48,617 nucleotides of DNA from contig CAMYJA010000018.1 in the NCBI GenBank assembly GCA_947258705.1, positions 8,291 through 56,907 of the forward strand, read 5' to 3'. Positions 1,549-35,007 of the stretch are shown piece after piece. This DNA is from an uncultured Hyphomicrobiaceae bacterium (GTDB lineage Bacteria; Pseudomonadota; Alphaproteobacteria; Rhizobiales; CAMYJA01). The translations under genes and the position numbers were made by a program. The notes beneath the pieces are model-generated. The model ran no database searches and was not told where the DNA came from. It saw nothing but the letters and a program-made list of their open reading frames with translations. Position 1 is the first letter of the stretch. Each line of letters starts with the position of its first letter.

Positions 1549-2904
1549 CTATCGGGCGCGCGCTTTCGGTAAAATGGGTGAAGGTAGAAGGTTGGTTTGA
1601 CGGTATAGCTGACGAACCAGATAAATATTCCAAAAGGCAAGGCTCAGGGCGGTTCCGGTCGCAGCACCATTTATTCCCATGAAAGGAATGAGGGCTGAAT
1701 TCAGTCCGACATTCAGCAGGGCGGCAATGATCGAGCCCCTGACGGTATAACGTTCCAATCCGATCATGTTCAGAACAAGGCTCACCGATCCTAATGCCGC
1801 ATTGATAATTTGGCCGGCTGTCAGGATCAGCAGGGCGCCAGCGCTTTCGGTAAAGACCTCGCCAAAGATGAACCCCAGAAGTTCACGACTGAAAAATATG
1901 AATAAGAATGCCACCGGCAACGACGTGAAAAGAACGATACGGGCGCTATTCGTCAACAGGCTCTGTAATTGTACCAGATCTCCATCATTATACAGGCGCA
2001 CGACGCTGGGACTGATGGCGACATTTGCAGCTGTGAGGGTGAAGCTGACAAGCAATGCCGATTGTGCCGCAATTCGATAAAGCCCCACCTGTTCGGGGGT
2101 CGCGAGAAGTCCTAGCATTAAAATGTCGGTATATCCGTTGATGACCATTACGCCTGAAAGCAGGCTCAAATGTCCAAGTGAAACGAGCCATGATCTGGTC
2201 TGATAGGATGCCGAACCCTTGATCGTGGTGGGGAGATTTTTTTTGATCAATATCAATACGACCAAAACGGATATGACGGCTGCCACAATATGCAGGGTCA
2301 TCGCCCAGCTCGGCGTCACTGAAGAAGGACCATAGAACTGCAGTGTTGCCAGAATGAAGATGCACAATAGCATCGGGCGAAATATCATATCGGAAAACTG
2401 GCCGGCGATAACATGGCCCAATCCCCTGAGCGATGCACTGAAGACCTCCGATATGGACCAGAATATTTGCACCAGCAGTGCGAGCATTATTGTCGTCCGC
2501 AAAGCAGGCGAGACAACATCGTCGAATAGCGTCAGTCCCAGCCCGGCGACTATAAGTATGGTGCCTGAATAAGTTGCCACGGCCTGCAAGGCTTTTCTTA
2601 AAAGCCCCCTGAGCCGGGGCCAGTCCTGGTCCTGTTTGGCAGACGAAGTTTCGCGCAGTACAAGTGACGCCAAGCCAAAATTTGCCGGGACGGCCAATAT
2701 TGCGATGATGGTAAAGGCGAGGATGTAAATCCCCAGGCCCTCGGGACCCAGCGTTCTGCTCAACACCGCGGTCAGTGCGAGGGCGATTACCGCTCCAGCT
2801 AATTTCAGCGCGGCACTCAATAGGGATTTTATCAGAATTTCCCGATCGCCGAAATCGATAGGAATGGAAATCAGGTTTCGAATAAAGTCAACAATCGAAT
2901 TCAT
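1549..2904 (-). CDS. Wzx-like polysaccharide flippase (MATE/MVF superfamily)
   Basis: The 451-residue protein is hydrophobic, with about 12-14 predicted membrane segments. It has the typical N-terminal architecture of polysaccharide biosynthesis flippases: a first helix after ILIKSLLSAALKLAGAVIAL, then TAVLSRTLGPEGLGIYILAF, where RxLGPxxxG is the usual motif. A second LLSGVMVINGYTDILMLGLL repeat appears midway, followed by the EQVGLYRIAAQSALLVSF motif. Family members move lipid-linked oligosaccharide units across the inner membrane. Its partner glycosyltransferases are not in the window. The neighbouring TylF-like methyltransferase and the divergent methyltransferase support a glycan context. 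The gene appears intact from the ATG at 2904. Confidence 0.88.
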   Translation of the reverse strand: MNSIVDFIRNLISIPIDFGDREILIKSLLSAALKLAGAVIALALTAVLSRTLGPEGLGIYILAFTIIAILAVPANFGLASLVLRETSSAKQDQDWPRLRGLLRKALQAVATYSGTILIVAGLGLTLFDDVVSPALRTTIMLALLVQIFWSISEVFSASLRGLGHVIAGQFSDMIFRPMLLCIFILATLQFYGPSSVTPSWAMTLHIVAAVISVLVVLILIKKNLPTTIKGSASYQTRSWLVSLGHLSLLSGVMVINGYTDILMLGLLATPEQVGLYRIAAQSALLVSFTLTAANVAISPSVVRLYNDGDLVQLQSLLTNSARIVLFTSLPVAFLFIFFSRELLGFIFGEVFTESAGALLILTAGQIINAALGSVSLVLNMIGLERYTVRGSIIAALLNVGLNSALIPFMGINGAATGTALSLAFWNIYLVRQLYRQTNLLPSPILPKARAR

Positions 2905-3345
2905 CCAGTGCTCTAACCTTGAATTTGTGACTCAATCCGTTTTTTGATTTGCAGATCCGGCAGGACGGTCGGGTGGGCAAATATCGTATCTTGAATATTT
3001 ACGGATTTGGAAATTCCTGTCTTATCTCATTTTCTATTTGTTCATATATGTACAAGACCACCAAGTGTAATAATTCTGAGGGATTCATTTATTGGCGCCG
3101 CCCAATATGATTCCGCGCCTGATGAAATCAGGACGGGGATTGTTCTATTGCATTTTAAAGTACGCGACATTTGTGCAGATGCATTGTGGTGCAATCTTTT
3201 GAGCGCTATAAGGAGCCGCTCAAGAGATATCAGCTGATTGTCGTATGTATCGGAACGGTCGTTCCCATAGCTGCCTGAACGGCACATGTTATTTCAATGC
3301 AATTACCGTCGAGAATTGCAGATTAATTTTTGGTTTGTCGTAAAT
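2905..3345. other. Divergent intergenic region between flippase and methyltransferase genes
   Basis: About 440 AT-rich bases separate the two divergent genes and should contain both promoters. Short open frames on both strands (3007-3237 plus, 3042-3287 minus) overlap each other and resemble no known protein. A small dyad, GGAAC-GGTC-GTTCC, lies at 3252-3265, just ahead of the first possible start of the downstream gene. Nothing else is recognisable. Confidence 0.5.
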
Positions 3346-4074
3346 ATGAAACAGCCCCAGCTTCCCCCCGGTTATGAATTCGTCAAATGGGATGAGGCCA
3401 ATGTAAAGCGGTTTTGGGATTTTGTATCCCAGGCTCAACCCGATGCCTATTTTACAAAGGGTGCGGGGAGCTATCTTGTCAGTCACTTTAACCCGCAGAT
3501 CAGTCAGGCTGATAATATCGTTGATTTTGGTTGCGGAGCCGGTTTCTTTCTCGATCATTTATGCAATACCGACAAAAAAATTGCAGGATTTGATCTTTCC
3601 GATGCTTCAATTCGCACGGTTCAGGAGAAATTCAGTGATCGTCCAAATTTTATGGGGGGGCTTACGCGTGAAGCGCTCGGAAATTTTGAAGGCCATTTTG
3701 ATTTGGCCTTCATGTTGGAGGTCGTTGAGCATCTTGATGACGAGCCTTTAAAGAATGCACTGGCTGATGTGCGGTCCCTGCTCAAGCCGGGTGCACGGCT
3801 CATTATTACAACACCCAATGAAGAGAATTTAAGCGACAATTGGATTTGTTGCCCTGACACGGGGCGTATCTTTCATCGCTGGCAACATGTGCGCAGTTGG
3901 TCGACGCATTCACTTTCGCAGACCCTTGAAGGTGCCGGCTTTGAGGTTGAGAAGGCATATGCCTGTAATGTATTGGCGCTTGGTCTCACGCCGAGAGCAT
4001 TGGTTTACCGCTTCGCATATTGGTTGCTCAATCATGGCAATCGGAACCTTTTCGTAATCGCTCGACGGCGATGA
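3346..4074 (+). CDS. Class I SAM-dependent methyltransferase (UbiG/Methyltransf_11-12 type)
   Basis: The protein has 242 residues from the ATG at 3346. Motif I, VDFGCGAGFFLDHL, is at residues 59-72. The acidic residue that binds the SAM ribose is in GFDLSD (81-86). Motif post-II, EVVEHLDD, is at 125-132, and RLIITTPNEEN is at 151-161. This is a complete class I methyltransferase fold. The PGYEFVKWDEANVKRFWDF start and the later FHRWQHVRSWS segment resemble methyltransferases of sugar or lipid pathways, but the acceptor is unknown. An upstream ATG at 3286 would add 20 residues (MLFQCNYRR...). Neither start has a good ribosome-binding site, and I prefer 3346 because homologues usually begin close to the conserved part. 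Confidence 0.82.
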   Translation: MKQPQLPPGYEFVKWDEANVKRFWDFVSQAQPDAYFTKGAGSYLVSHFNPQISQADNIVDFGCGAGFFLDHLCNTDKKIAGFDLSDASIRTVQEKFSDRPNFMGGLTREALGNFEGHFDLAFMLEVVEHLDDEPLKNALADVRSLLKPGARLIITTPNEENLSDNWICCPDTGRIFHRWQHVRSWSTHSLSQTLEGAGFEVEKAYACNVLALGLTPRALVYRFAYWLLNHGNRNLFVIARRR

Positions 4075-7850: not shown

Positions 7851-9421
7851 GAGCCGTCTCCCCCACGATGACTGCCTCGATCCATGGCCATACCCGGCGC
7901 TGTTGGCTTGCCTGACGGGGATGGTTTGACCATCGGTAGTGTTATTTTTGATTTTGAAACATCAGTTATTTCAAAAATATTTTTGTCCTTCTTGACGAGG
8001 GAAAAATAGATTTTATCTCCCGGCCTAAGCGATTTAAGCTTTACATCACCGGTGACCGAGAAATCCATCGTCATGGTTGGCCAGCCGATTTCAGGTATCG
8101 GGCCATGCGTAATGTTGAGCTTTCTATCCTGAAGCATGACTGTATTTATGGTCCCCTTTGCCACAGTCTCGGCAACAGGTGTTTTTTCATTGTCGCGAAC
8201 AGGCTCGGTTGATATCCGAAGAAGGCTGGCATCCAGACTTGCCTCCGAATCGATGAGAAACTGCCCCGATGTGACAACTTTCTCACCCTTTTCGAGACCA
8301 ACAACCACCTCGATACGATTTCCGACCTCCATGCCTGTAATTACCTTGGCAGGACGAAAACGCCCATCACCAAGCGCCAAAATAACCCGTTCCTGCTTAC
8401 CGGTACGAATTACCGCCTCCCTCGGAACGCTCAGGACATCCATTTGCGGCTTACCAGAGAGCGTGATTTCCGCATACATATTGGGCTTGAGCTTTTCGTC
8501 AGGATTCTTGAATTCAATGCGTGTCCGTACAGTCCGGCTCTTGGGATCGACAGTTGGATAAACATAATCGACAACACCCTCCCAAATTCTGCCGGGAAAA
8601 AATGGAAGACGCATGACAGCTTTCTGTCCTTTCTCTACCCAGGCGCCTTGTCCTTCATAAATTTCAACATTTACCCAGATGGACTTCAGATCGGCGATGG
8701 TCATGACATTTGTCCGCGGCTTGACAAACATACCCTCGCGAGCATTGAGCTCGACTATATAGCCATCATGCGGCGCATAGACATCAATGAGGCGGTCGAC
8801 CTTTTTCGTACGCTTTAATTTCTTAATCTGTCGCTCAGACATGCCAAGCGCCACGAGACGCTCATGGGCAGCCCTGGACAGACCGCTCTGTTTTATCTTG
8901 AGCGCTTGCAGGTATTCGGCTTGCGCATTTACCAGGGCAGGTGAATAGATCTGAAATATACGGCCAGATCGCTTTACCCGCTCGCCGGCCGTCTTTACAT
9001 CCAGCCCCTCGATCCACCCTTCAGTCCGCACATGAATGTCATGGGTGAGGTCATCGTTCTGACCGAGATATCCGACTGTCTCGATCTCCCGCTTCAGGGC
9101 GCCAAGCGTAACGGGCGCGGTGCGTACACCGATATTGTTCACGACAGAGGGATTAATTTTTAGGGCTTTTTTTCCGTCCTCACCGGAACTGCCGCCATCT
9201 TCTTCATAGACAGGAATGAGGTCCATTCCCATTGCCGACTTGCCTGGACCAGGTCGACGGAAATTTGGATCCATGGGCGCGACCCAGTAAAGAATTTTCT
9301 TTTCACCGGGGCCGTTACCGTCGGCGTTTTTACCGCCAAATGAAAAACCCGAAATCCCATATCCGATACCAATACCGACAGTGAGGATAAGCAACGTTGA
9401 AACTACTGATTTTACTGACAT
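7847..9421 (-). CDS. cusB: CusB-type periplasmic adaptor with fused C-terminal CusF domain
   Basis: This 524-residue membrane-fusion protein would link CusA to CusC. The N-terminus is a membrane anchor or signal (LLILTVGIGIGYGISGF). A metal-associated motif follows at about residues 44-73 (YWVAPMDPNF and GKSAMGMDLIPVY), as in other CusB proteins. Next come the hairpin and barrel domains, with the adaptor motif VDRLIDVYAPHDGYIVELN. Residues 427-488 are a separate CusF-like OB-fold domain. It carries the Trp-Met-Met copper site as GWPTMTMDF (W447, M450, M452), preceded by a His in ITHGPIPEIG. In E. coli CusF is a separate chaperone. Here it is built in, so the adaptor can present Cu(I)/Ag(I) directly. 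A Met-, His- and Gly-containing tail ends the protein. Confidence 0.95.
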   Translation of the reverse strand: MSVKSVVSTLLILTVGIGIGYGISGFSFGGKNADGNGPGEKKILYWVAPMDPNFRRPGPGKSAMGMDLIPVYEEDGGSSGEDGKKALKINPSVVNNIGVRTAPVTLGALKREIETVGYLGQNDDLTHDIHVRTEGWIEGLDVKTAGERVKRSGRIFQIYSPALVNAQAEYLQALKIKQSGLSRAAHERLVALGMSERQIKKLKRTKKVDRLIDVYAPHDGYIVELNAREGMFVKPRTNVMTIADLKSIWVNVEIYEGQGAWVEKGQKAVMRLPFFPGRIWEGVVDYVYPTVDPKSRTVRTRIEFKNPDEKLKPNMYAEITLSGKPQMDVLSVPREAVIRTGKQERVILALGDGRFRPAKVITGMEVGNRIEVVVGLEKGEKVVTSGQFLIDSEASLDASLLRISTEPVRDNEKTPVAETVAKGTINTVMLQDRKLNITHGPIPEIGWPTMTMDFSVTGDVKLKSLRPGDKIYFSLVKKDKNIFEITDVSKSKITLPMVKPSPSGKPTAPGMAMDRGSHRGGDGS

Positions 9422-17608: not shown

Positions 17609-18027
17609 TAGGGTCTCCCCCTGCCAGCAAATGCAAAAAAGATGATCAGCATAACGGCAAAAACTGCAATCCCCACACCGAGTTCAACCAACAGGATTCC
17701 GAGGTGTTGCCCGGCGATTTGGGTGTCGGCCAGCACCGTGTATTCGAGATAATTTCCATCCAGATAGAGTGTAACCACCCCGACACCCGCATAAAGGAGT
17801 ACCCCGAGGCTGGCGAGAAGTCGCAAGATAGTTGACGGGAATACTTTTTCGGCTGCATCAAGCCCAAACACCAGGGCATAGAGTATGATGGAGGAACCCA
17901 GAATGACACCTGCCTGAAAACCGCCTCCAGGACCAAAATCACCATGGAACTGCACATAAAGTGCAAATACAATAATCAGTGGGATCACGGTTTTTGAGAC
18001 AAGCCGAAGGATAAGATTATGCGTCAT
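17608..18027 (-). CDS. mrpB: Monovalent cation/H+ antiporter subunit B (MnhB domain)
   Basis: The protein has 139 residues from the ATG at 18027, which has a very good AGGAGGGG ribosome-binding site. A longer in-frame start at 18078 is less likely. The MnhB domain is complete: LRLVSKTVIPLIIVFALYV, then QFHGDFGPGGGFQAGVILGS (the family hallmark H-G-x4-GGGFQxG), and LGILLVELGVGIAVFAVM at the end. Four helices are predicted. The gene overlaps the preceding DUF4040 gene by 11 bases. Confidence 0.93.
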   Translation of the reverse strand: MTHNLILRLVSKTVIPLIIVFALYVQFHGDFGPGGGFQAGVILGSSIILYALVFGLDAAEKVFPSTILRLLASLGVLLYAGVGVVTLYLDGNYLEYTVLADTQIAGQHLGILLVELGVGIAVFAVMLIIFFAFAGRGRP

Positions 18028-18592
18028 TTTCCCCTCCTTCGTTCCTCCCGGGCGTTGATTTCCGGCGTTTATCTCCAATCAACAGCAATACCGCAATTCC
18101 GGCAGTAAAAATAACGAAGACCTCCCCGAGGGTATCGAATCCACGATAACTCGCCAAAACCGCTGTAACTATATTTGGGACCCCGGTTTCGGGGACCGAC
18201 CTTTCAATGTAGTAGGGTGCCACATGCTTTTGGGCCGGCGCCTCAGGATCACCGAATGCTGGTATATCCAGGGTGCCATAAACCAATGCGGTGCCCGTCA
18301 GAGTGACTACCGCCAATGGCAACCATGAAATACGACCTACAGATTGTTTTTCATTTTGATCTTTGGTCAACGCAATCGTTGCCAGCATCAGCACGGTCGA
18401 GATTCCCGCGCCGACAGCCGCCTCGGTAAAGGCCACATCAACGGCATCCATAACAACAAACATGGTGGCGGACAGAAAGCTGAATATTCCAAACAGCATG
18501 ATAATGGCAAACAGGTTTGTTATGCGGACAATCGCCACCGCGGTGATCGCGAGAAACGTCAACAGGGTTATGTCGATAACAATATCAATCAA
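18017..18592 (-). CDS. MbhD/MbhE-like subunit equivalent to the MrpA C-terminal part (DUF4040)
   Basis: The protein has 191 residues in two halves. Residues 1-85 are the MbhD/DUF4040 part, with AVDVAFTEAAVGAGISTVLM, whose Glu-Ala-Ala-Val-Gly-Ala-Gly motif is diagnostic. Residues about 90-180 are the MbhE-like part, with YYIERSVPETGVPNIVTAVL and YRGFDTLGEVFVIFTAGIAV. In standard Mrp systems both halves form the C-terminus of the large MrpA protein. Here they are a separate gene and the NuoL-like part of MrpA is not attached. Its ATG overlaps the mrpG stop by four bases. Confidence 0.88.
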   Translation of the reverse strand: MIDIVIDITLLTFLAITAVAIVRITNLFAIIMLFGIFSFLSATMFVVMDAVDVAFTEAAVGAGISTVLMLATIALTKDQNEKQSVGRISWLPLAVVTLTGTALVYGTLDIPAFGDPEAPAQKHVAPYYIERSVPETGVPNIVTAVLASYRGFDTLGEVFVIFTAGIAVLLLIGDKRRKSTPGRNEGGENDA

Positions 18593-18909
18593 GACTTGCC
18601 CTCGCCTGGAGTGCTATCCGTTTTGGGCTTAAGGCCGCCGTGCATCGCGGCGTTGGCCAATGCATGTGTAGCGGTTGGGCTGGTTAGAATGAGAAACAGA
18701 AAAATCAGCGCGATCTTGAAAGCGGCAAGACTAATCCCGGCTTGCAAGCCTAGACCGAGCAGAATTAATATGGCGCATAAGGTGTCGGTTGTCCCCGTCG
18801 CGTGCTGGCGGCTGTAAAAATCGGGAAATCGATGAATACCGACAGCGCCGACGACACCCACCAGCCCACCAGCGACAAGACAGATCCAGCTCAAAGCATC
18901 GACAATCAT
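18589..18909 (-). CDS. mrpG: Monovalent cation/H+ antiporter subunit G
   Basis: The 106-residue protein has three helices. The family motif is LVAGGLVGVVGAVGIHRFPD then FYSRQHATGTTDTLCAILIL (the usual G-x3-RxPDxxxRxHAxxxxDT). The FLILTSPTATHALANAAMHG segment is the conserved third helix end. It is complete and of normal length. It lies 17 bases after mrpF. Confidence 0.93.
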   Translation of the reverse strand: MIVDALSWICLVAGGLVGVVGAVGIHRFPDFYSRQHATGTTDTLCAILILLGLGLQAGISLAAFKIALIFLFLILTSPTATHALANAAMHGGLKPKTDSTPGEGKS

Positions 18910-32588: not shown

Positions 32589-33974
32589 ATGACAGATATC
32601 GACAGCCGGATCGAAGATGGAGCGACGCCATTGCGGAATGCTCCGGCAACGGCCGATGAACCCACCGCGCCCGACGCATCGGAAACCGTCTCCAGTGAAG
32701 CGGCACCCGCCAACGGCAAGACTGAACCGACGGCGGACGGCAATGCTATGGACGATGGTGCGATTGATGGCGTCGAAACATCCTCCGGCGGGGTCGCCCA
32801 GGGCGAAAAATTTATACCCCTGACCCGTTTTGCCGTCATGGACAGGCTTACACAGCCTCAGTACTGGTCTTCCGGAGAGGCAGACGACGCCCGGAAGTTT
32901 TTCAAATACCTCGGCGCATGGCGTCATCAGACCTACAATGGCCGTATATTAAAGCTCAAGGAAGCCTATATGCCCTTCAGCCCGGATCGCGATACCGTCC
33001 GGGTGCTCGAATATTCGAATGACCAGCTGGCGGATTTTCAGAGCGGCTTTGTCGAAAGCATGACGGAACTCCTTGAGCAGGCCAATTACACGCGCGTTTC
33101 GATGGAAGGTCTGCAAAAGATTTTTTCGCAAAAATCAATCTACAATCTCGACCTCGAAGTCGATCTGTCGGAGTTTGAAGAACTCGTCATCTACTGCCGC
33201 GGTGAAATGACAGAAACCAAGGAACGGCGAAGCTGGAAAAAACTGTTCATCGGCAAGGAATCTTATGAAATCCCGCGCTATCAACGTCTCTTTCTACTTC
33301 TCAAATTAAAATCCCCGGCACAGCGGATCGATGAGATCATGGAGGAAGAACGCCGTAAAAGGGACGGGCAGCCGATCGAACGCAAAAAGGCTGAAAAAAT
33401 TCTCGCGAAAAACCGCCGCATGCTGCCGCCGGGCATTTGCTGCGATCATATTTACCTGAAACTTTTCAAAAACATCCCGACAACCGACCTGGAGATGATG
33501 TTTCCAAACACCAAGGTTCGGTTCCGGCCATTCGACAAATTGAAACTGGGAATCACGGCTGGCGGCGGCACGATTGCCAGTATTGCCAGCACTGCCGGTA
33601 AAGTACTCCTCATAACTACCAATCCCATAAAGGCGATGGGCGCCCTGATCGGCATTTTTGCCGTTGTCGGACGCCAGATCATGAAGTTTTTCCATCAGCG
33701 CAATGAATATATGATGGTTCTGGCGCAAAATCTTTACTTCCATAACCTGGCCGACAATCGCGCAACACTGACCCTGCTCTCCGACCGCGCAGAGGAAGAA
33801 GACATGAAGGAGGAGATGCTCCTCTACACTTTCATGACCAGGGAAGAGGTGTCGCGCTCCGACCTGCCCACGCTCCAGACCGTCATCCAGAAACATCTGT
33901 CGATTTTGACATTATGGACGCTTTGCATCGCCTCATGCATGACGGCATTGTCACTGAAAACAACGGTCGTCTGA
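32589..33974 (+). CDS. DUF3754 membrane-associated protein, reading frame broken near the C-terminus
   Basis: The frame gives 461 residues from the ATG at 32589, with GGGAG upstream. A disordered acidic Ala/Thr-rich N-terminus (about 70 residues) leads into FIPLTRFAVMDRLTQPQYWS and the DUF3754 core: YNLDLEVDLSEFEELVIYCR, IYLKLFKNIPTTDLEMMFPN and TKVRFRPFDKLKLGITAGGG. Two membrane segments follow (TIASIASTAGKVLL; IKAMGALIGIFAVVG), then YFHNLADNRATLTLLSDRAE. Family members include mitochondrial TMEM143; the function is unknown. After residue about 437 the frame turns to unrelated sequence and stops at 33974. The expected C-terminus continues in another frame (see the next entry). Confidence 0.85.
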   Translation: MTDIDSRIEDGATPLRNAPATADEPTAPDASETVSSEAAPANGKTEPTADGNAMDDGAIDGVETSSGGVAQGEKFIPLTRFAVMDRLTQPQYWSSGEADDARKFFKYLGAWRHQTYNGRILKLKEAYMPFSPDRDTVRVLEYSNDQLADFQSGFVESMTELLEQANYTRVSMEGLQKIFSQKSIYNLDLEVDLSEFEELVIYCRGEMTETKERRSWKKLFIGKESYEIPRYQRLFLLLKLKSPAQRIDEIMEEERRKRDGQPIERKKAEKILAKNRRMLPPGICCDHIYLKLFKNIPTTDLEMMFPNTKVRFRPFDKLKLGITAGGGTIASIASTAGKVLLITTNPIKAMGALIGIFAVVGRQIMKFFHQRNEYMMVLAQNLYFHNLADNRATLTLLSDRAEEEDMKEEMLLYTFMTREEVSRSDLPTLQTVIQKHLSILTLWTLCIASCMTALSLKTTVV

Positions 33975-34078
33975 TCGCCATGAGACCGATAGAAGGTTGT
34001 GCCCATATCGGTGCAAAATGGAATGCCCATCTCGACATGGCCGATGCCATACATGACACCCAGGCGGAAAATGTGTGA
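33899..34078 (+). pseudogene. Out-of-frame C-terminal tail of the DUF3754 gene (-1 frameshift)
   Basis: From 33899 the -1 frame reads VDFDIMDALHRLMHDGIVTE, then NNGRLIAMRPIEGCAHIGAK and WNAHLDMADAIHDTQAENV, ending at TGA 34076-34078. DUF3754 proteins normally end with a helix-turn segment of this kind (DVEDAL-x-KL-x2-LGLV-x2-DG-x-L). The stop of this frame overlaps the GTG start of prmA as GTGA, a typical coupled junction. This supports it as the original end. The shift lies around 33890-33900 (AAACATCTG). It may be a sequencing error, a mutation or, less likely, programmed slippage. Confidence 0.75.
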
Positions 34079-35007
34079 GTAAGGATCACATCGAGTGCTT
34101 ACAAACCGAAAACGAACCCATGATCGACGGCTGGCGCTGGTCGCTCCAATGCACGTTGGAACAGGCATTACTATTAAGCGATGCACTCTCCGAGCTTGAA
34201 AAGCCGAAGTCCACAGCAGTCTCCATTTATGAGCAATCCCCCGGCATCCACATCGTAGATGCCTATTACCCAGCCAGACCCGTCAGACATGAAATCGCTG
34301 CTGTATTTGCAGCTATTGGTTTGGAAACGCCTTCTCTCGATAGCGCTGAAATAGCACCTATTGAAAAAACGAACTGGGTTGCCCGTTCCCAAACCAATCT
34401 CCCGCCCGTGAAGGCCGGGCGTTTTATCGTACACGGGCGGCATGACAGGGAGAAGGCGGATTGCCGGTCCCGCACCTCGATTGAGATCGACGCCGCAGAA
34501 GCGTTCGGCACCGCCCACCACGGCACGACAAGATCCTGTCTGCGGGCGCTCGACATTCTGCTCCGCAAGACGAAACCGCGCAATGTGCTAGATCTCGGCA
34601 CGGGAACGGGCATTCTCGCCATCGCCGTGGCCAAAGCCTTGCGAGACGCAAATATACTCGCCACGGACAATGATCCGGTTGCCTGCCGCACCGCCCTGTC
34701 CAATTGCAATCTAAATCTGGTCCTCAGACGGATTAAAATTATCCAGGCCGAAGGATTTAACCACCCCCTCCTGCGCACCGCGCAAACCTTCGATACCGTC
34801 ATTGCAAATATCCTGGCCGGGACACTGAAAAATCTCGCGGCGAATTTCCGCATCGCTTTAAAGGCGAACGGGCACGCCATTCTTTCCGGTATCATGACTG
34901 AGCAGGCCGCCTCTGTGCGCGCCACGTTCAGGTCGCACGGATTTATAGATTGTCGACAACTTGATGACGGTGAATGGACGACGCTTGTCATGCAAAAAAA
35001 CCCGTGA
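34075..35007 (+). CDS. prmA: Ribosomal protein L11 methyltransferase
   Basis: The 310-residue protein trimethylates ribosomal protein L11. An N-terminal substrate-binding ferredoxin-like domain (about 1-110) precedes the pre-SAM segment AFGTAHHGTTRSCLRALDIL (143-162). SAM motif I is VLDLGTGTGILAIAVAKAL (171-189), followed by ATDNDPVACRTALSN (196-210) and the VIANILAGTLKNLA catalytic region (motif IV). The GTG start overlaps the restored stop of the DUF3754 frame. ATG codon 16 (MIDGWRWSLQ) is an alternative. Confidence 0.94.
   Translation: MSKDHIECLQTENEPMIDGWRWSLQCTLEQALLLSDALSELEKPKSTAVSIYEQSPGIHIVDAYYPARPVRHEIAAVFAAIGLETPSLDSAEIAPIEKTNWVARSQTNLPPVKAGRFIVHGRHDREKADCRSRTSIEIDAAEAFGTAHHGTTRSCLRALDILLRKTKPRNVLDLGTGTGILAIAVAKALRDANILATDNDPVACRTALSNCNLNLVLRRIKIIQAEGFNHPLLRTAQTFDTVIANILAGTLKNLAANFRIALKANGHAILSGIMTEQAASVRATFRSHGFIDCRQLDDGEWTTLVMQKNP

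Follow-up and report, generated by a model that had tools for sequence, protein, structure and literature searches.

A probable 22-bp deletion near the 3' end of a DUF3754 gene located upstream of prmA in an uncultured Hyphomicrobiaceae bacterium

In the window analyzed here (a stretch of 48,617 nucleotides forming part of contig 18 of a 2.77-Mb draft genome in 66 contigs), a gene of the DUF3754 family precedes prmA, and its reading frame appears to be lost shortly before its expected end. The initial annotation left three origins open for this shift, namely, a sequencing error, a recent mutation, and programmed slippage. We therefore asked where exactly the frame is lost, how much sequence is missing relative to homologous genes, and which of these origins, if any, accounts for the loss.

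Reading frame and detached C-terminal segment

As now read from the ORF list and its translation, the gene (positions 32589 to 33974, plus strand) runs from an ATG start to a TGA stop at 33972 to 33974 and encodes 461 amino acids, the final 24 of which are out of frame. The product, which is of unknown function, matches Pfam DUF3754 (PF12576) over residues 207 to 391 with an E value of 6.4e-29 and 101.1 bits, above the gathering cut-off of 27, and is thus a member of this family, for which we assume a connection to human TMEM143. The domain itself is unbroken (33207 to 33761, plus strand, as computed from the residue numbers) and ends well upstream of the frame break. The out-of-frame extension (33900 to 33971, plus strand) is fairly hydrophobic, with a best 19-residue Kyte-Doolittle mean of 1.74 in the last 40 residues.

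The derailment had been placed near 33890 to 33900, and comparison with homologous proteins confirmed this: homology leaves the main frame at a junction spanning 33897 to 33901 (plus strand). The last codon in the conserved frame encodes Leu (33897 to 33899), and the conserved sequence resumes at a Val codon (33899 to 33901) in the -1 frame, so that the junction covers 5 nt, compared with 27 nt (a Leu-type residue, seven further residues, and a Val-type residue) in all 64 distinct relatives. From there, a detached C-terminal segment (33899 to 34078, plus strand), homologous to the C terminus of the relatives, continues for 59 codons up to a TGA at 34076 to 34078. When the 1411 six-frame segments of the window were searched with a profile of 22 relatives, this tail was recovered with an E value of 1.9e-11; the main DUF3754 ORF alone ranked above it, and the next segment below it had an E value of 3.2. 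Its coding score exceeded that of each of 888 out-of-frame 60-codon segments from the same genome (888/888) and corresponded to the 54th percentile of 444 in-frame segments, with test segments that overlap the training set. The tail had been described as the C-terminal DUF3754 segment, open for 59 codons up to a GTGA; length, coordinates, and homology all held up, but the tail lies outside the Pfam domain, which is itself intact. The affected part is a separate conserved C-terminal domain beyond it.

No second copy of the gene was found in the genome, which contains a single DUF3754 match, and an intact paralogue elsewhere was rejected as a candidate; the two rows for this genome in the profile search represent both halves of the window gene. 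Between 31000 and 36000, no known RNA element was detected at Rfam gathering scores.

Size of the loss and nature of the affected domain

When 397 genomes of the order were searched with a profile, 60 gave a match, the window's own genome among them. Six named Hyphomicrobiales contigs were added as further sources of relatives, and removal of duplicates left 64 distinct relatives; not part of this set are L001, L002, and L019 (the window gene's own copies and a fragment without a C terminus), duplicate proteins, and the match on contig 324 of genome G127 (a fragment without a C terminus). Some of the relatives from the order have a C terminus identical to that of proteins from named Hyphomicrobiales and Methyloligella contigs.

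Over the break site, a block of 20 residues (60 nt) is ungapped in every one of these relatives and consists of five residues, the last of which is Leu or similar to it, seven more residues, and a Val-x-Phe-Asp-like motif. This block lies outside the Pfam model and is a feature of the relatives from the order, not a defining one of the Pfam family; the window gene retains 38 of its 60 nt, measured between the same Ile and the same Ala, and 22 nt are thus missing. As this number equals seven codons plus one base, the frame seems to move by -1. The seven lost residues include a Phe that is invariant in a 21-row alignment (A1); across all relatives, this position holds Phe, Tyr, or Cys. While the window gene shares with its family both the Pfam domain and the position ahead of prmA (46 of 64 relatives), it differs in that its conserved C-terminal block is shorter by seven residues and is followed by a loss of the frame.

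None of the 64 relatives changes frame at the window's site, and 63 of them keep an unbroken frame through the C-terminal region. The remaining one (L057, from genome G310; 303 to 1565 and on) is broken approximately 15 residues beyond the window's break and in a different manner, with the seven residues still present; prmA was not found downstream of it. The alignment with DUF3754 relatives that had been proposed as a check thus supports the earlier suggestion that the long form is the original one, as all relatives carry the block over the break and the single broken gene is broken elsewhere. Of the origins proposed for the shift, a recent mutation remains viable, but programmed slippage and a sequencing error of the homopolymer type explain the data poorly, because 22 nt are gone and not one base; on the same ground, a one-base slip or homopolymer error was rejected.

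To what structure the lost residues belong was addressed with a model of one relative (L024), built from a shallow alignment (7 rows). The model is poor overall (mean pLDDT of 46.7), with residues 391 to 480 in blocks of 68 to 88. At the C terminus, this model contains a helix (416 to 431), a second helix (440 to 448), two short strands, and a third helix (465 to 480). With modest confidence, the lost residues can be placed in the last part of the first helix and the turn after it, within a winged-helix-like domain. A structure search with the model returned 366 PDB matches at an E value of 10 or better, the best having an E value of 0.15 and none reaching 0.001, and many of the 50 listed among these 366 are proteins that we take to contain winged-helix domains (DtxR/IdeR, MarR type, and cullin WHB). 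Since no structural match was significant, the winged-helix reading is weakly supported; a search by sequence found no solved structure. The comparison shows that, beyond the part described by the Pfam model, members of the DUF3754 family in this order possess a further C-terminal domain that is conserved and probably winged-helix-like.

Origin and age of the break

We consider it probable that the DUF3754 gene was broken by a real and recent deletion of 22 bp near its 3' end, an ordinary event that requires no special decoding. As expected of a gene broken by an indel, the homology is interrupted by a length difference to the relatives and then picks up in a different reading frame. Compared with every relative examined, 22 bp are missing, and the loss is out of frame; according to this reading, ribosomes would depart from the conserved frame at 33899 and append 24 unrelated residues before terminating at 33974. 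The resulting product would retain the DUF3754 domain and lose most of the winged-helix-like C-terminal domain. The deletion would then have occurred in the organism itself, and recently, and the truncated protein would presumably be inactive or altered. The deletion is known from one draft assembly, as sequence letters only.

Programmed -1 ribosomal frameshifting is used by, among others, dnaX and IS3-family transposases. The DUF3754 gene resembles these systems in the -1 direction of the shift and in its overlapping open frames, and it could be imagined that programmed frameshifting, or else transcriptional slippage, yields a longer product that ends at the GTGA and couples its translation to that of prmA. 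The tail is indeed still coding-like and ends within the prmA start, and one in-frame U_UUG tetramer (33905 to 33908, plus strand) is found just beyond the junction. However, the region from 33746 to 33971, which is open in both frames, does not contain a heptamer of the type X_XXY_YYZ, and its in-frame Z_ZZN tetramers are limited to UUUC at 33830, 67 nt before the junction, and the aforementioned UUUG at 33905. In the E. coli measurements that we draw on from PMC4066793, U_UUG raised frameshifting 1.8- to 3.6-fold over background even in combination with a strong stimulator, and U_UUC was, with a stimulator, more shift-prone than U_UUG; we weighed the U_UUG tetramer but did not credit it as a frameshift signal. 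The one downstream stretch that was folded (33912 to 33992; 81 nt) is not unusually stable, with a z score of -0.10 and 79 of 200 shuffled sequences at least as stable. A slip product would still miss seven residues of the ungapped block, and neither slippage nor a one-base error returns these residues, so both fail as full explanations. Unlike the known systems, the window gene has no heptamer, a stimulating fold was not detected, the frame change is not conserved in any relative, and 22 nt are missing. With no heptamer, a weak tetramer, and no unusual fold, we rejected programmed frameshifting, and to this reading, transcriptional slippage included, we attach almost no probability; the short form of the gene does not represent a programmed product.

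A weightier rival, though one that we still regard as unlikely, is that the gene is really intact and that 22 bases were dropped by the assembler, which would have collapsed the sequence locally or joined it falsely and perhaps caused similar losses elsewhere. The draft state of the assembly (66 contigs; of the first 20 stretches sampled, 3 contain N letters) fits such an artefact, as does the lack of decay in the tail and the remainder of the gene, and two other sampled genes show similar apparent losses of ~56 and ~59 nt. Against it, a loss of 22 nt is not of the homopolymer type, no run exceeds 4 within 33700 to 34080, the window is free of N letters, and the junction, as it now reads, is not spanned by any direct repeat of at least 6 nt. 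The literature that we consulted points both ways: in Antonov et al. (2013; PMC3711429), lone frameshifts with homologous (BLASTp) support are expected to be sequencing errors and not genuine indels, whereas those located close to the 3' end, as here, are regarded as more likely to be indel mutations, which favors a tolerated indel over an error. With the "singleton" frameshift genes treated there (indel-broken genes and pseudogenes), the window gene shares its restriction to a single lineage, homology that continues in the other frame, a position near the 3' end, and the lack of a recoding motif; it differs in that 22 nt were lost instead of one base and in that it is known from the assembly alone.

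Whether similar losses occur elsewhere in the assembly was examined by scanning for changes of coding frame. A first scan, covering 448,617 bases, did not flag the DUF3754 locus; a second scan with a larger training set, covering 848,617 bases including the window, did flag it, as one of 68 suspects among 206 same-strand jumps. A control genome in one contig (G302; 400,000 bases) gave 41 suspects among 115 jumps, a rate which indicates that such an ab initio list is noisy and gives no sign of an excess over the control. For 28 of the 68 suspects, the sequences on either side of the jump were searched against Pfam (48 protein entries); the other 40, including the separately tested DUF3754 locus, and the suspects of the control genome fell outside this check. 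In 6 of the 28, the two sides matched different Pfam families, and these are therefore ordinary neighbors; in one, an NHL gene, the same repeat family was present on both sides; and the remaining 21 either had no Pfam match on at least one side or belonged to the tandem protease genes of locus L104. Homology was examined for two of the 28 suspects, and both look broken. The NHL-repeat gene (L099; contig 13 of the window's genome, G000, 17927 to 18884) changes frame near 18331, and its four closest relatives (L109 to L112) are unbroken and, by simple arithmetic on the alignments, approximately 56 nt longer. The other, an unnamed gene (L091; contig 5, 8175 to 8811), changes frame near 8575, and two distant relatives with weak homology (L122 and L125) agree on approximately 59 nt more, a figure obtained in the same way. 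These losses could be real deletions or could reflect a common assembly fault.

Three further loci were noted. On the minus strand of the window (17611 to 18613), genes for MbhD/MbhE-type and MnhB-type cation antiporter subunits have overlapping ends and are ordinary neighbors, and in L104 (10361 to 11783, minus strand), two adjacent genes with aspartyl-protease domains apparently form a tandem pair. Four successive suspect jumps were located between a DUF4403 and a DUF1489 gene on contig 7 (L093; 1431 to 4066, minus strand); the stretch between these two genes had no Pfam match, and the locus contains 97 N.

If the deletion is real, the state of the remaining sequence bears on its age. In a comparison with 59 relatives (leaving out the distant L085 and L086, the partial L015 and L082, and the split L057), the window gene deviated at none of 36 near-invariant columns outside the lost residues, as did 40 of these 59. 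The ratio of its tail identity to its core identity was 0.78, at the 51st percentile of the same relatives. By these two measures, neither the core of the gene nor its tail is visibly decayed. Three residues before the break, the window encodes Gln at a position (E424) that is occupied by Glu in each of the 21 rows of A1; the same substitution is present in L057, and this might be one small sign of an older relaxation. As the rest of the gene is undecayed and the tail scores like coding sequence, the break should be either recent or an assembly error; on balance, we consider it to be recent in relation to the age of these families, if it exists in the organism at all.

The deletion could also be real and the short protein functional, the winged-helix-like domain having become dispensable in this lineage by adaptive or neutral truncation, a reading that overlaps with the one we prefer. 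The intact Pfam domain is compatible with this, as is the fact that this C-terminal region was broken a second time, independently, in L057. However, the frame is unbroken in all other relatives, the added hydrophobic tail of 24 residues looks unselected, and the detached tail is undecayed, from which it follows that any selection in favor of the short protein would have to be recent; such a truncation seems improbable to us. Returning to the ordinary deletion that we favor, its consequence for annotation would be that the gene be marked as disrupted by a deletion and not as a candidate for recoding.

Coupling to prmA

The gene for ribosomal protein L11 methyltransferase, prmA (34075 to 35007, plus strand; Pfam PrmA E value of 1.2e-51), starts with a GTG at 34075 to 34077, which overlaps the TGA of the detached tail (34076 to 34078) as GTGA. 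A Shine-Dalgarno-like sequence (AGGCGGA; 34062 to 34068) is located 6 nt before this GTG; an alternative candidate start, ATG at 34120, is, unlike the GTG, not preceded by such a sequence. Counting from the GTG, the first 15 codons have a coding score below zero and the next 60 a score of about zero, and because both stretches score low, coding score does not decide between the two starts.

Within the sequence fetched, prmA follows the DUF3754 gene on the same strand in 46 of the 64 relatives, which provides a small lead on an uncharacterized family. Among these 46, a script found an exact NTGA overlap in 10, four of them GTGA, with three of these four from one family; a further GTGA overlap, in relative L010, was counted by the script as no overlap, since the best prmA match there starts late. 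The initial annotation had taken the GTGA coupling as an argument for the long form. It does lend plausible support, but such an overlap is not the rule, being exact in just 10 of the 46 relatives. With the frame lost upstream, any start coupled to termination at the GTGA would disappear as well, but prmA could still initiate from its own Shine-Dalgarno-like site; in annotation, its start should not be assessed on the assumption that coupling to the upstream gene is intact.

The main-frame stop (33972 to 33974) is located 5 nt before an ATG in the tail frame (33980), a possible reinitiation site that has no Shine-Dalgarno-like sequence in front of it. One could speculate that the C-terminal domain is being shed in some lineages, as the independent breaks in G310 and in the genome of the window might reflect, and that the broken frame is in part rescued here, termination at this stop being followed by reinitiation at the ATG at 33980. 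As the tail frame ends in the prmA GTGA, coupling to prmA would then be retained without the lost domain being made, a scenario to which we assign a very slight chance. Finally, in genome G011, the prmA gene behind the DUF3754 gene of relative L010 (at about 2799 to 3700) is seemingly split over two overlapping frames.
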